Shown here: piece after piece, positions 43,599-50,471 of the stretch
Layout of the letters: each line of letters starts with the position of its first letter
How positions within the stretch are numbered: the stretch's first letter is position 1
Origin: Lachnospiraceae bacterium
GTDB lineage: Bacteria; Bacillota; Clostridia; Lachnospirales; Lachnospiraceae
Direction: 5' to 3'
Length of the DNA: 52,954 nt
Assembly (NCBI GenBank): GCA_017557525.1
Contig: JAFYYN010000169.1
Coordinates: 1 to 52,954 of the forward strand
Program-made: the position numbers and the translations under genes
Notes under the pieces: generated by a model
What the model saw: the letters and a program-made list of their open reading frames with translations, nothing else
Told to the model about the DNA's origin: nothing
The model's database searches: none

Positions 43599-43717
43599 CA
43601 TGCCGCAGGCATGTTTACACATCGGTGACGTGCCTGTCGCGGCACCGATGGAAGTTTGAAAGTATACTTTCAAACTTTTCCTCATCGAAGAAAACCCTCC
43701 ATTGCATTACGGGTTTC
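43599..43717. repeat. Cluster of palindromes between tmRNA and the PPIase-like gene
   Basis: Four palindromes lie side by side. CATGCC/GGCATG has a 3-base loop (43599-43613). CATCGG/CCGATG with inner TGCC/GGCA spans 43620-43650. A perfect 26-base palindrome without a loop lies at 43652-43677. AAACCC/GGGTTT spans 43692-43716. The last, with its loop (minus strand GTAATGCAATGGA), is nearly identical to a module at 48688-48718 in the opposite orientation. On the minus strand it is followed by TCTTC and lies 9 bases past tmRNA, so it may also serve as the ssrA terminator. Confidence 0.85.
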
Positions 43718-43724
43718 CTTATGA

Positions 43725-44110
43725 TGGACCAGAGGGGAGTCGAACCCCTGTCCGAAAGCCTATTCACTCCAGTTTCTCCCATCACAGTCTATGTTTTGTC
43801 ATTCCCTTATCGCAACGCCCACAGACAGGCTTAGCAACTTGGTAGCTTCATGTTTCTACTTTCCGCTCAAAGCTTTGCAGAAAGAGTTCCCCACCTGGAT
43901 GACGCCGGTTACAGGGGCGAACCCCTGCGGGACCTTGCGGCTTCTCCTCCTGTGCAGTGGGCTACACAGGTCCGACGTGCTGCACGTTAGGCAGCTAATG
44001 CGTAATTTTCTTTAGCGTTTATATTTAGTTATCCGTTTATTTAGGTGAGTGCAGACTCTCACCGATGGCTTCCAAAGCTTCAAAACCCCCGTCGAAACCA
44101 GTACTGGCCC
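43725..44110 (-). ncRNA. ssrA: tmRNA (ssrA)
   Basis: tmRNA rescues stalled ribosomes with SmpB by adding a degradation tag. The 5' end (minus strand) reads GGGCCAGTACTGGTTTCGAC and the 3' end has the T-arm ACAGGGGTTCGACTCCCCT then CTGGTCCA. GGGCCAG pairs with CTGGTCC to give the 7-bp acceptor stem with discriminator A; CCA is not encoded. The tag frame lies at 44019-43987: NAKENYALAA followed by TAA (the exact resume codon, AAC or GCT, is uncertain). Length is 386 bases. It begins 9 bases after the smpB stop, so it may be cut from an rnr-smpB-ssrA transcript or use a promoter inside smpB. Confidence 0.97.
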
Positions 44111-48296: not shown

Positions 48297-48355
48297 AATT
48301 TTCCCCATTCCTTTATTTTATTGGTAGAAATATATACCATTTGAATCCAAATTAG

Positions 48356-48384
48356 ATTTTAACACGAAAACGCTTTAAATGCAA
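48356..48384 (-). promoter_or_regulatory. Promoter of the receiver-domain gene
   Basis: TTGCAT (48384-48379), 17 bases, TAAAAT (48361-48356) on the minus strand, just past the tRNA terminator; leader of about 50 bases. Confidence 0.75.
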
Positions 48385-48407
48385 TAAAAAAAATGTAAAA
48401 TTGCACA

Positions 48408-48439
48408 AAAAAAGAATCCTCTCGTAAGGATTCTTTTTT
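48408..48439 (-). terminator. Rho-independent terminator after tRNA-Leu
   Basis: A 13-bp stem AGGATTCTTTTTT/AAAAAAGAATCCT with a 6-base loop; the minus-strand arm ends in T7. It lies 4 bases past the tRNA 3' end. Confidence 0.9.
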
Positions 48440-48443
48440 CAAA

Positions 48444-48526
48444 TGCCGCAAGCGGGACTTGAACCCGCACGCTTTTGAGGGCGATGGATTTTGAGTCCAT
48501 TGCGTCTGCCATTCCGCCATTGCGGC
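48444..48526 (-). tRNA. tRNA-Leu, anticodon CAA
   Basis: The minus strand gives acceptor GCCGCAA/TTGCGGC with discriminator A, D-arm GCGGAATGGCAGACGC, anticodon stem ATGGA/TCCAT with loop CTCAAAA (anticodon CAA, reads UUG), a long variable arm as in Leu tRNAs, and T-arm GCGGGTTCAAGTCCCGC. Length is 83 bases; CCA is not encoded. A terminator follows directly. It is alone, not in a tRNA cluster, and is preceded by a hairpin array that appears to form its leader. Confidence 0.96.
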
Positions 48527-48529
48527 ATA

Positions 48530-48786
48530 TGCCATCACACAACGTGTGATGGCAGTCAGTCTGCGCGACGCTTGGCGCAGTCCCATCAAATGAAATTCCG
48601 AGCACAGCGAGGAATTTCTTCATTTTCCATCACAATACGTTACAAAATGACAATCCGTTCGCGCGACGCCTGGCGCGATCAATCACCAGAAAACCTGTAA
48701 TGTAATGGAGGGTTTTCTTCCATCCAGCCATCATACGAAGTATGATGGTCATGTGAAAATTTCTACTAGTCCGTTGCGCGACTTCA
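48530..48786. repeat. Tandem array of three degenerate palindrome units, apparent leader of tRNA-Leu
   Basis: This gene-free stretch holds three units of about 95-100 bases. Each begins with a CCATCAC-type palindrome: 48530-48554 (11-bp stem), a decayed copy at 48627-48650, and 48728-48748 (9-bp stem). Each then has a GCGCGAC motif at 48563, 48661 and 48776; the first two form hairpins CTGCGC/GCGCAG and TCGCGC/GCGCGA around near-identical loops. Units 1 and 2 add a third hairpin (48592-48618, and 48688-48718, which matches the module next to tmRNA). Stem differences between copies keep pairing. A promoter at 48789-48817 points into it. Confidence 0.85.
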
Positions 48787-48788
48787 TT

Positions 48789-48817
48789 ATAATACCATCT
48801 ATCTCCCCACTTGTCAA
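48789..48817 (-). promoter_or_regulatory. Strong promoter reading through the hairpin array into tRNA-Leu
   Basis: A perfect TTGACA (48817-48812), 17 bases, TATTAT (48794-48789) on the minus strand. The start would be near 48782, at the array edge. It begins 9 bases past the sufB stop. Confidence 0.85.
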
Positions 48818-48825
48818 TCCATTTT

Positions 48826-49743
48826 TTACTTCAGGAACCCGTTAACTATCATCTCTTCCGCCTCATGCTCGGTGAGTCCCAGAGACATAAGCTTAACGAT
48901 CTGCTCGCCGGCGATCTTTCCGATGGCAGCCTCATGGATCAGCGAAGCATCGACGCAGTTAGCCTCAACCTCAGGTATTGCAGCCACCTTACCGTTATCC
49001 ATAATGATAGCGTCACACTCGGAGTGTCCTGCACATTTGTTATTTCCCCTGATATTGGACTTAAACATCTGGGTAGAGTTTTCCCTTGCCACAGAACGAG
49101 AGATAACATTGGTACTTGAGCCCTCGCCGTTTAAGTCAACCACAAAATCAGTCTCTGCATGCTGCTTACCGTGGGTCATTATCTTCTCTTTAATAACCAG
49201 ACTGCCATTATCAGCAATATCAGCCTTCGTAGTCCTGATGGTAGAATCCACGCCCTTAATCTGGGTAGTTTCCATCTCCATAGTGCTCCCCGCACCTACA
49301 TGGACAATCGTCTGAGGGTTAAGCACGATCTCACCGTTACCGTCTCCCTCTCCGTAATGCTTCTCCACGTATCTGACTCTAGAATTCTCTCCTATAAAGA
49401 AGCTGTGTATTCCGTCATGCTCTGATTTCTGAGTTCCGCAGTTATGAATACCGCAGCCCGCAATAATAGTCACATCACAGTCATTTCCGATATAGAAATC
49501 ATTGTAAACAGCCTCTGTAAGACCTGTCTCACTTATGATAACGGGGATATGCACGCTTTCCCTCTTGGTCCCGTCAGCAATACGTATATCTATACCGGGC
49601 TTATCCTGTTTGGTAGTGATCTCAATATGTTCTGTTGAACGTCTTCCTGCACCCTCACCGTTGGCCCTTATATTATATGCTCCGGTCGGGATCTCATGTA
49701 GTCCTGCGATCTCCGCAAGTAAGTTTTCCTGTATCTTATCCAT
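48826..49743 (-). CDS. SufB/SufD-family Fe-S scaffold protein (minimal SmsB-like)
   Basis: SufB-type proteins form the scaffold on which Fe-S clusters are built, with SufC as ATPase. The 305-residue protein has the right-handed beta-helix core (VTIIAGCGIHNCGTQKSEHD, RYVEKHYGEGDGNGEIVLNP) and the C-terminal HSECDAIIMDNGKVAAIPEV and DASLIHEAAIGKIAGEQIV segment. It is much shorter than E. coli SufB (495). Only sufC is adjacent; there is no sufS, sufU or sufD, which fits the two-gene SMS-type SufCB system described in anaerobes. It follows sufC by 14 bases. Confidence 0.9.
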   Translation of the reverse strand: MDKIQENLLAEIAGLHEIPTGAYNIRANGEGAGRRSTEHIEITTKQDKPGIDIRIADGTKRESVHIPVIISETGLTEAVYNDFYIGNDCDVTIIAGCGIHNCGTQKSEHDGIHSFFIGENSRVRYVEKHYGEGDGNGEIVLNPQTIVHVGAGSTMEMETTQIKGVDSTIRTTKADIADNGSLVIKEKIMTHGKQHAETDFVVDLNGEGSSTNVISRSVARENSTQMFKSNIRGNNKCAGHSECDAIIMDNGKVAAIPEVEANCVDASLIHEAAIGKIAGEQIVKLMSLGLTEHEAEEMIVNGFLK

Positions 49744-49757
49744 TACCGTACCTCAAT

Positions 49758-50471
49758 TTATCTCTTAAACTGGCACTTAAAGGTTGACCCTGAGAAAAGA
49801 GGCATAACCTCTTCCTTAGTGCCCTGTTTTACTACCTCACCGTCAGCCACAAGGATGATCTCATCAGCGATATTGATAATTCTTTCCTGATGCGAAATGA
49901 TTATTATCGATCCCTGTGTTTTCCTCTTCAGATCCTCAAATACCTTTATGAGATTTGAAAAACTCCAGAGATCTATACCTGCTTCAGGCTCATCAAAAAT
50001 TGTAAGCTTGGTGCCCCTTGCTATAGTTATGGCAATCTCGATCCTCTTTAATTCACCGCCGGAAAGGCTTGCATTTATCTCTCTGTTTAAATAGTCGTTT
50101 GCACACAGGCCAACCTCTGAAAGATAATCACAGGCAGAGGACTTCATCTTTTCTCCTGCTGCTAAGTGCAAAAGATCCTTTACAGTTAAACCTTTGAAAC
50201 GCACAGGCTGTTGGAAAGCAAAGCCAATACCCAGCCTTGCCCTGTCGGTTATCGACATATCGGTTATGTCCTGCCCGTTATAAAGGATCTGCCCCGACGT
50301 AGGCTTATAAATACCTGCAATAAGCTTTGCAAGAGAGGATTTTCCGCCTCCGTTAGGACCGGTTATAACGAAAAATTTATCGTCAGGAAGAACAAGCGAG
50401 ACATTCTTTACAATCCCGATGTTCTTTCCTTCATCCTCAACATTGTAACTTAAATTCTTTAACTCTAACAT
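49758..50471 (-). CDS. sufC: SufC Fe-S assembly ATPase
   Basis: SufC is the ABC-type ATPase of the Suf system. The 237-residue protein has Walker A FVITGPNGGGKSSLAKLIAG, the Q loop in FAFQQPVRFKG, the signature ASLSGGELKRIEIAITIARG, and Walker B LTIFDEPEAGIDLWS with a His switch in IIIISHQERI. Length is typical (about 245). It follows pyrI by 15 bases, so the Suf pair may be read from the pyr operon transcript. Confidence 0.94.
   Translation of the reverse strand: MLELKNLSYNVEDEGKNIGIVKNVSLVLPDDKFFVITGPNGGGKSSLAKLIAGIYKPTSGQILYNGQDITDMSITDRARLGIGFAFQQPVRFKGLTVKDLLHLAAGEKMKSSACDYLSEVGLCANDYLNREINASLSGGELKRIEIAITIARGTKLTIFDEPEAGIDLWSFSNLIKVFEDLKRKTQGSIIIISHQERIINIADEIILVADGEVVKQGTKEEVMPLFSGSTFKCQFKR

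Follow-up and report, generated by a model that had tools for sequence, protein, structure and literature searches.

The palindromic array that separates tRNA-Leu(CAA) from its promoter in the window (the whole 52,954-nucleotide stretch of DNA analysed here) is very probably a cluster of dispersed, mobile, non-coding, structured intergenic repeat units that landed in a tRNA leader. Its association with tRNA-Leu(CAA) is probably incidental. The initial annotation had described three degenerate units in front of this tRNA, and these are indeed present: two complete copies of a repeat of about 100 bp, together with a truncated third copy, spanning 48529-48782. All three are read on the plus strand, antisense to tRNA-Leu(CAA). 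The relevant features of the window are as follows.

48529..48619, plus strand: unit A, complete, with hairpin 1 at 48530-48554, hairpin 2 at 48561-48580 and hairpin 3 at 48592-48618; match to covariance model R1 of 99.6 bits, E 1.0e-17 (unit A is a seed of the model)
48627..48717, plus strand: unit B, complete, with hairpin 1 broken, hairpin 2 at 48659-48678 and hairpin 3 at 48689-48717; R1 match of 76.5 bits, E 9.4e-13 (unit B is likewise a seed)
48727..48782, plus strand: unit C, truncated, delimited by eye, with hairpin 1 at 48728-48748 and the left half of hairpin 2 at 48773-48782
48789..48817, minus strand: tRNA-Leu(CAA) promoter, TTGACA and TATTAT separated by 17 nt, with TG ahead of the second hexamer
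48443..48527, minus strand: tRNA-Leu(CAA)
48408..48439, minus strand: likely terminator of the tRNA transcript, a 13-bp stem with an A/T tract, judged by eye
48826..49743, minus strand: SufB/SufD-family protein, the synteny neighbour (Pfam SUFBD_core above cut-off)
43684..43728, minus strand: lone copy of hairpin 3 at the tmRNA 3' end (plain DNA search, E 7.3e-7)

The initial annotation recognised the first two hairpins of the unit; a third, which it had overlooked, is present in each full unit (48592-48618 and 48689-48717). The matched stem changes that it quoted between copies are also present, with hairpin 1 of the middle unit broken. The promoter, which it had characterised as a perfect -35 and a good -10 at 17 bases, is the best of five promoter-like sites in 48300-48900, where 1.4 would be expected by chance, and it has a counterpart in all seven congeneric loci compared. 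The minus strand of 48400-48782, a stretch that takes in the tRNA and its terminator-like stem, folds at -141.1 kcal/mol compared with -111.8 (sd 5.9) for 100 shuffles (z -5.0). The likely tRNA terminator at 48408..48439 is absent from the terminator-scan list. Searches against Rfam gave no match over any unit at gathering score in the window, and none over a unit in five unit-bearing loci at a permissive threshold (E up to 10). For the SufB/SufD-family protein, the NCBIfam sufD, SmsB and sufB models all score below their cut-offs; together with its neighbour it forms a short SufC-like and SufB-like pair at 48826-50471, over which NCBIfam SufC, SufB, SufD and SmsB matches stay under cut-offs.

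A complete unit of the family is about 100 bp long and consists of three hairpins in a row. Hairpin 1 has a stem mostly of 10-13 bp (at least 8 bp in 57 of 66 units) and is followed by a well-kept linker, CAGTC[A/G]GT; hairpin 2 carries the conserved loop GACGCNTG; and an A-rich spacer then leads to hairpin 3, whose left arm is A-rich and whose right arm is T-rich. A coding frame spanning the unit was rejected by eye, as it runs into a stop in both copies read in this way (L039 and unit A). The loop of hairpin 2 holds an extra hairpin of one kind in four own-genome copies (L050, L051, L052, L053) and of another kind in L155 and L161 (genome G008) and L149 and L168 (G010); from their sequences, these look as if hairpins had been inserted into hairpins.

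Pieces of the array occur elsewhere in the genome of the window by plain DNA search (best E 4.1e-10), and a covariance model was built from seven units, with A and B of the window among these seeds. At E <= 0.001 the model has 16 matches in the own genome, seven of which are the seeds; the best of the nine non-seeds has an E value of 3.1e-17. The covariance search of related genomes that had initially been proposed yielded 66 units in seven of the 24 genus genomes, the own genome included (16, 26, 7, 6, 5, 3 and 3 units), and zero in the other 17 at the same threshold. This number derives from 71 model matches, less three that were removed (one spanning a tRNA and two fragments) and two duplicates of one locus. 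The pattern CAGTCNGTNYGCGYG gave 50 matches in 11 of the 24 genomes compared with five for a reversed control pattern. Twelve of its matches fall outside the model list, and five of the nine inspected resemble degenerate or truncated units (three in G006, one each in G001 and G020); those in G009, G019, G021 and G023 show no visible unit and look like chance. Beyond the genus, a second model, R2, found the family in the own genome only among 392 genomes of the order, a weak negative given 11 scored candidates per genome and stricter filters, and one exact-pattern scan of viral contigs returned 0 matches. No unit reaches E <= 0.001 in the draft of G003 (71% complete), although its near neighbours G006 and G001 have six and 26. 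An Rfam Clostridiales-1 RNA (111.8 bits, L041:240-406) lies about 0.9 kb away from one unit.

Most of these units have no tRNA nearby. A tRNA lies within 300 bp of nine of the 66 units: three stand in the tRNA-Leu leaders of the window and G006, four belong to an Asp-Val-Thr-Tyr cluster of the own genome, G006 and G010, and two adjoin a tRNA-Arg in G008 and G020; the remaining 57 are without one, although some contigs stop close to the unit. The initial annotation had held that hundreds of scattered copies with no link to tRNA genes would mark a generic repeat rather than a leader element. The link is indeed mostly missing, but the copies in this genome number about 16, not hundreds. The tRNA-cluster copy in G010 (L149:765-858) is nearly identical to an own-genome copy (L046:332-425) while the SufB-like proteins of the two genomes are only 61% identical, a similarity that may reflect transfer, strong conservation or mixed assembly. 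A second variable kind of hairpin (CTCC...GGAGCC, GTCAAA...TTTGAC) was seen by eye between the tRNAs of a Val-Thr-Tyr-Met-Phe cluster (L007:113-600).

The genus is probably one of gut or rumen Lachnospiraceae. The stretch after the SufB-like gene was read in 25 loci. tRNA-Leu(CAA) is on the same strand in seven of them (window included), on the other strand in six and not found in 12. Locus L010, one of these 12, whose contig ends early, was added by choice for its promoter and array, giving eight loci for comparison (the window and seven congeneric loci). TTGACA with an extended -10 follows the SufB-like gene in all eight, and because the promoter is kept throughout, the array is probably transcribed as a leader of the tRNA. 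Arrays of differing make-up lie between promoter and tRNA in four of the loci (window, L010, L012 and L013), three of which share a similar hairpin 1; a hairpin 1 like that of unit C is present in the tRNA-Leu leaders of G006 and G008, closer to the tRNA in G006. The other four (L014, L015, L022 and L032) have promoter and tRNA-Leu without an array, and their genomes have zero model matches at E <= 0.001, so the array is optional. By eye, L014 and L022 contain small inverted repeats of their own between promoter and tRNA. In a one-gene tree of the SufB-like protein, G003 (no array; a partial row for this gene) is closest to G006 (array), an arrangement that either gain or loss of the array at this locus could produce.

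Likewise, several other intergenic gaps are occupied in one genome and free of a unit in its relatives. The genomes are drafts, and the gene names tig-clpP and rpoA-rplQ were assigned by eye. At tig-clpP, among 12 loci compared, G006 alone has a unit. The gap measures 135 bp in G006 compared with 37-39 bp in G003, G001, G020 and G007, and the G003 flanks match those of G006 at 98% (451 bp on the upstream side, 83 bp on the downstream side); several bases of the left flank differ as well, which makes the junction something other than a base-exact insertion into the relatives' sequence. A second gap has a unit in G001 and none visible in eight other loci compared, some of which hold other sequence. 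The rpoA-rplQ gap contains full units in G001 and G020, whereas G006 retains just hairpin 1 and the unit end there; the copy of the own genome is degenerate (E 0.016), and G003, G008, G010 and G017 have none. This gap is occupied in several genomes and not in G003, which is near G006 in the one-gene tree, a pattern that either losses or repeated gains could produce. The atpG-atpD gap offers no clean comparison with and without the unit; it is occupied by a unit in the own genome, but by a different palindrome (GTCAGCCGCAGGCTGAC and neighbours) in L256, L258 and L260 (G010, G003 and G020). Sites with and without the element, as expected of a MITE, are therefore found at tig-clpP, the second gap, rpoA-rplQ and tRNA-Leu, with junctions that are not base-exact.

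Junctions were profiled at those unit ends that conformed to a start or end pattern, 57 on the left and 48 on the right. AT immediately precedes 30 of the 57 left ends fitting [AT][TC]G, and.CAT follows 39 of the 48 right ends, with TCAT in 24 of these 39. The termini show only a weak ATG...CAT match. No consistent target duplication was found at the unit junctions; a possible AAG was noted by eye at tig-clpP. Neighbouring units stand head to tail in all five two-unit loci (L040, L149, L195, L205 and L206), a count that omits fragments and one match spanning a tRNA.

The units lie mostly in gaps between genes and show a directional preference relative to them, with gene calls and starts taken from a simple codon script. 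Between genes of the same direction, 36 of 46 units read with them and 10 against (p 1.6e-4), the two full units of the window being among the 10. When loci were merged by shared flanks, 31 groups read with the genes and seven against (38 scored of 55, p 1.2e-4). With a same-direction gene downstream, 32 of 48 units have their ends in the range from 45 nt before to 25 nt past the called start of that gene, and with a same-direction gene upstream, 16 of 41 start within 5 nt of its stop. The proteins encoded downstream of ten own-genome units are unrelated by Pfam scan: a LytTR protein, an argininosuccinate synthase, DnaG, a DnaB_2-domain protein, a topoisomerase, a family-2 glycosidase, a member of the ATP synthase alpha/beta family, a class-II tRNA synthetase, a C-type lectin and one protein without a Pfam match.

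The fold of the unit is conserved across its copies. In the alignment fitted to the model (71 matches, 69 distinct, with three non-units still in the pair count), both partners have changed in 24 of 25 pairs, and the proportion of paired cells is 96.3%, compared with 74.4% after shuffling. In an unfitted alignment of 40 units, built without structure, hairpins 2 and 3 still pair at 96.7% compared with 86.2%, with a covariation score of 0.406 against 0.201. Double-change pairs (10 vs 7.3) and further pair types (22 vs 19.8) differ less, and these two weak measures out of five were reached by 10 and 42 of 500 shuffles. Covarying conserved structure of the kind reported for bcr repeats is therefore found in the fitted alignment and, for hairpins 2 and 3, in the unfitted one.

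In hairpin 1, the stem sequence changes between units while pairing persists, and the remaining mismatches are asymmetric between strands. When stems were placed by Watson-Crick pairs alone and the remaining pairs counted, the 66 units gave 61 G-T and seven A-C pairs; the fitted alignment gave 69 and 12. Among 57 stems in 19 clusters the counts are 26 and six (p 5e-4), and they fall to 11 and three (p 0.057) when each cluster contributes a single stem; nine of the 66 units, having no 8-bp stem, were kept in the 61:7 count and left out of the clustered and antisense-stem counts. Hairpins 2 and 3 have no clear excess of G-T over A-C (6:3 and 10:8). As every G-T pair becomes an A-C mismatch on the complementary strand, it is seemingly the plus form whose folding is preserved, and we infer that what is maintained is a folded single strand, either RNA or, in the course of movement, ssDNA. 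The seven stems placed antisense have four G-T and no A-C pairs, an excess that hints at source copies or the moving form rather than local transcription, in a sample too small to decide.

We regard the repeat as a new family among the small structured intergenic repeats. Its nearest counterparts in kind are the BOX and bcr elements of other Firmicutes, compared here by description, and the REP/REPIN elements. In a literature search, no title among the matches listed names such a repeat family in Lachnospiraceae. The account of BOX in PMC3049150 presents a small modular interspersed repeat of Streptococcus pneumoniae that is predicted to form hairpins on transcription, folds by pairing its terminal inverted repeats, is thought to be mobile and likely affects co-transcribed genes. 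By description, the present family resembles BOX as a modular Firmicute repeat with predicted hairpins and mobility, but it has three successive hairpins and barely matching ends in place of paired termini. The bcr1-bcr18 repeats of the Bacillus cereus group are intergenic and often located in untranslated regions or operon gaps, and bcr10 and bcr18 have conserved structure and a proposed RNA function (PMC3446304, citing Kristoffersen 2011). Again by description, these are likewise intergenic structured repeats, though of another host group.

REP, REPIN and BIME sequences are described in PMC3733652 and PMC3116915 as intergenic palindromes, often near the 3' end of the upstream gene and in many cases plausibly transcribed; PMC10969869 was also among the sources for the repeat comparison. 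The suggestion that the array belongs to a REP/BIME-like mobile palindrome family is supported as to mobility by scattered copies, unit-free gaps in relatives and the 57 units without a nearby tRNA, but strict REP/BIME identity does not fit. The unit is a three-hairpin element of about 100 bp and not a single 20-40 bp palindrome with an unpaired GTAG/CGTC tag, as in REP elements; in units starting with A[TC]GTC, those bases lie mostly within the hairpin 1 stem. Neighbours alternate in BIME, whereas the units in the five two-unit loci keep the same orientation, and no RAYT flanked by units was found (no unit at the four own Y1 loci; G001 without a PF01797 match). ERIC and Correia elements are inserted in transcribed regions. 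They differ from the present family, in which neither a target duplication nor a terminal inverted repeat was clearly seen. For ERIC, an effect that depends on orientation is reported in PMC3049150.

Two readings offered initially tie the array to the tRNA itself. One, a regulatory leader specific to tRNA-Leu(CAA), such as an attenuator or a processing control, would accord with the conserved promoter and probable transcription, the strong fold (z -5.0) and the occurrence of arrays in the window and three of seven congeneric loci, three of these four with a similar hairpin 1. We consider it very unlikely, because the array is missing from half of the compared loci and varies in make-up by species, most units of the family (57 of 66) are more than 300 bp from any tRNA seen, and the units stand antisense to the tRNA, opposite to the bias of the family. 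The other, in which the array is processed from the tRNA precursor as a distinct small RNA, is if anything a shade less probable still: the array is structured and probably transcribed, but the Rfam searches of the window and the five loci gave no match over a unit, and the same absence from four of eight loci and differing make-up among relatives argue against it.

If the units were instead cis-regulatory RNAs, forming a class of 5' leaders that had spread along with genes or from gene to gene to serve common control, covariation in the units and the ends of 32 of 48 of them close to downstream starts would be understandable; relatives without a unit in the same gap and the unrelatedness of the downstream genes in ten own-genome cases make this improbable. 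The mobile repeat could also be one moved by a RAYT or an IS200-type Y1 transposase acting on folded ssDNA, which is compatible with our preferred explanation and which we regard as possible but doubtful. The asymmetry of hairpin 1 extends to antisense stems (4:0), as expected if the moving single strand is recognised, and PF01797 genes occur in six of the seven unit-bearing genomes compared with six of the 17 without units. Yet G001, with 26 units and 85% completeness, has no PF01797 match, the four own Y1 loci have no model match, and 25 Y1 loci give two 12-bp matches to the typed consensus (E 0.33). A RAYT/Y1 mover is therefore not supported: the PF01797 search of the own and genus genomes, followed by the unit search at Y1 loci, gave no link, and the Y1 transposase loci examined revealed neither a mover nor an autonomous parent. 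The two longer Y1 genes of the own genome (L171 and L172) are flanked, by eye, by other short repeats (GGGGTCTGACCCC-like and GGGACGGTTCT-like).

Under the preferred explanation of a dispersed mobile repeat, a small non-autonomous element would settle in intergenic gaps and be transcribed with the neighbouring genes. Units would have reached the gap between promoter and tRNA-Leu by insertion, perhaps with local duplication, and the tRNA would be transcribed through them, its 5' end then being cut by ordinary RNase P processing; as the leader would be removed in this way, its length is probably just tolerated. Elsewhere, sense units between genes could form hairpins that separate cistrons and modulate their stability or translation. 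A bolder and rather tentative version, which we think unlikely to hold in full, is that the element moves as a folded single strand of RNA or ssDNA by means of a non-RAYT mover, with a hairpin stem that is free in sequence but must pair on that strand, and that its insertion, oriented with transcription, targets the gap separating a stop codon from the next ribosome site.

Bacterial genomes commonly contain small structured repeats, which are still poorly explained. The present family offers units that are present in one species and missing from the same gap in close relatives, and it combines fast sequence turnover of a fold with a strand bias, which makes it possible to ask whether selection acts on RNA or on ssDNA. 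If the array is transcribed as the conserved promoter suggests, it would also show how insertion can provide a tRNA with a leader of about 255 nt.
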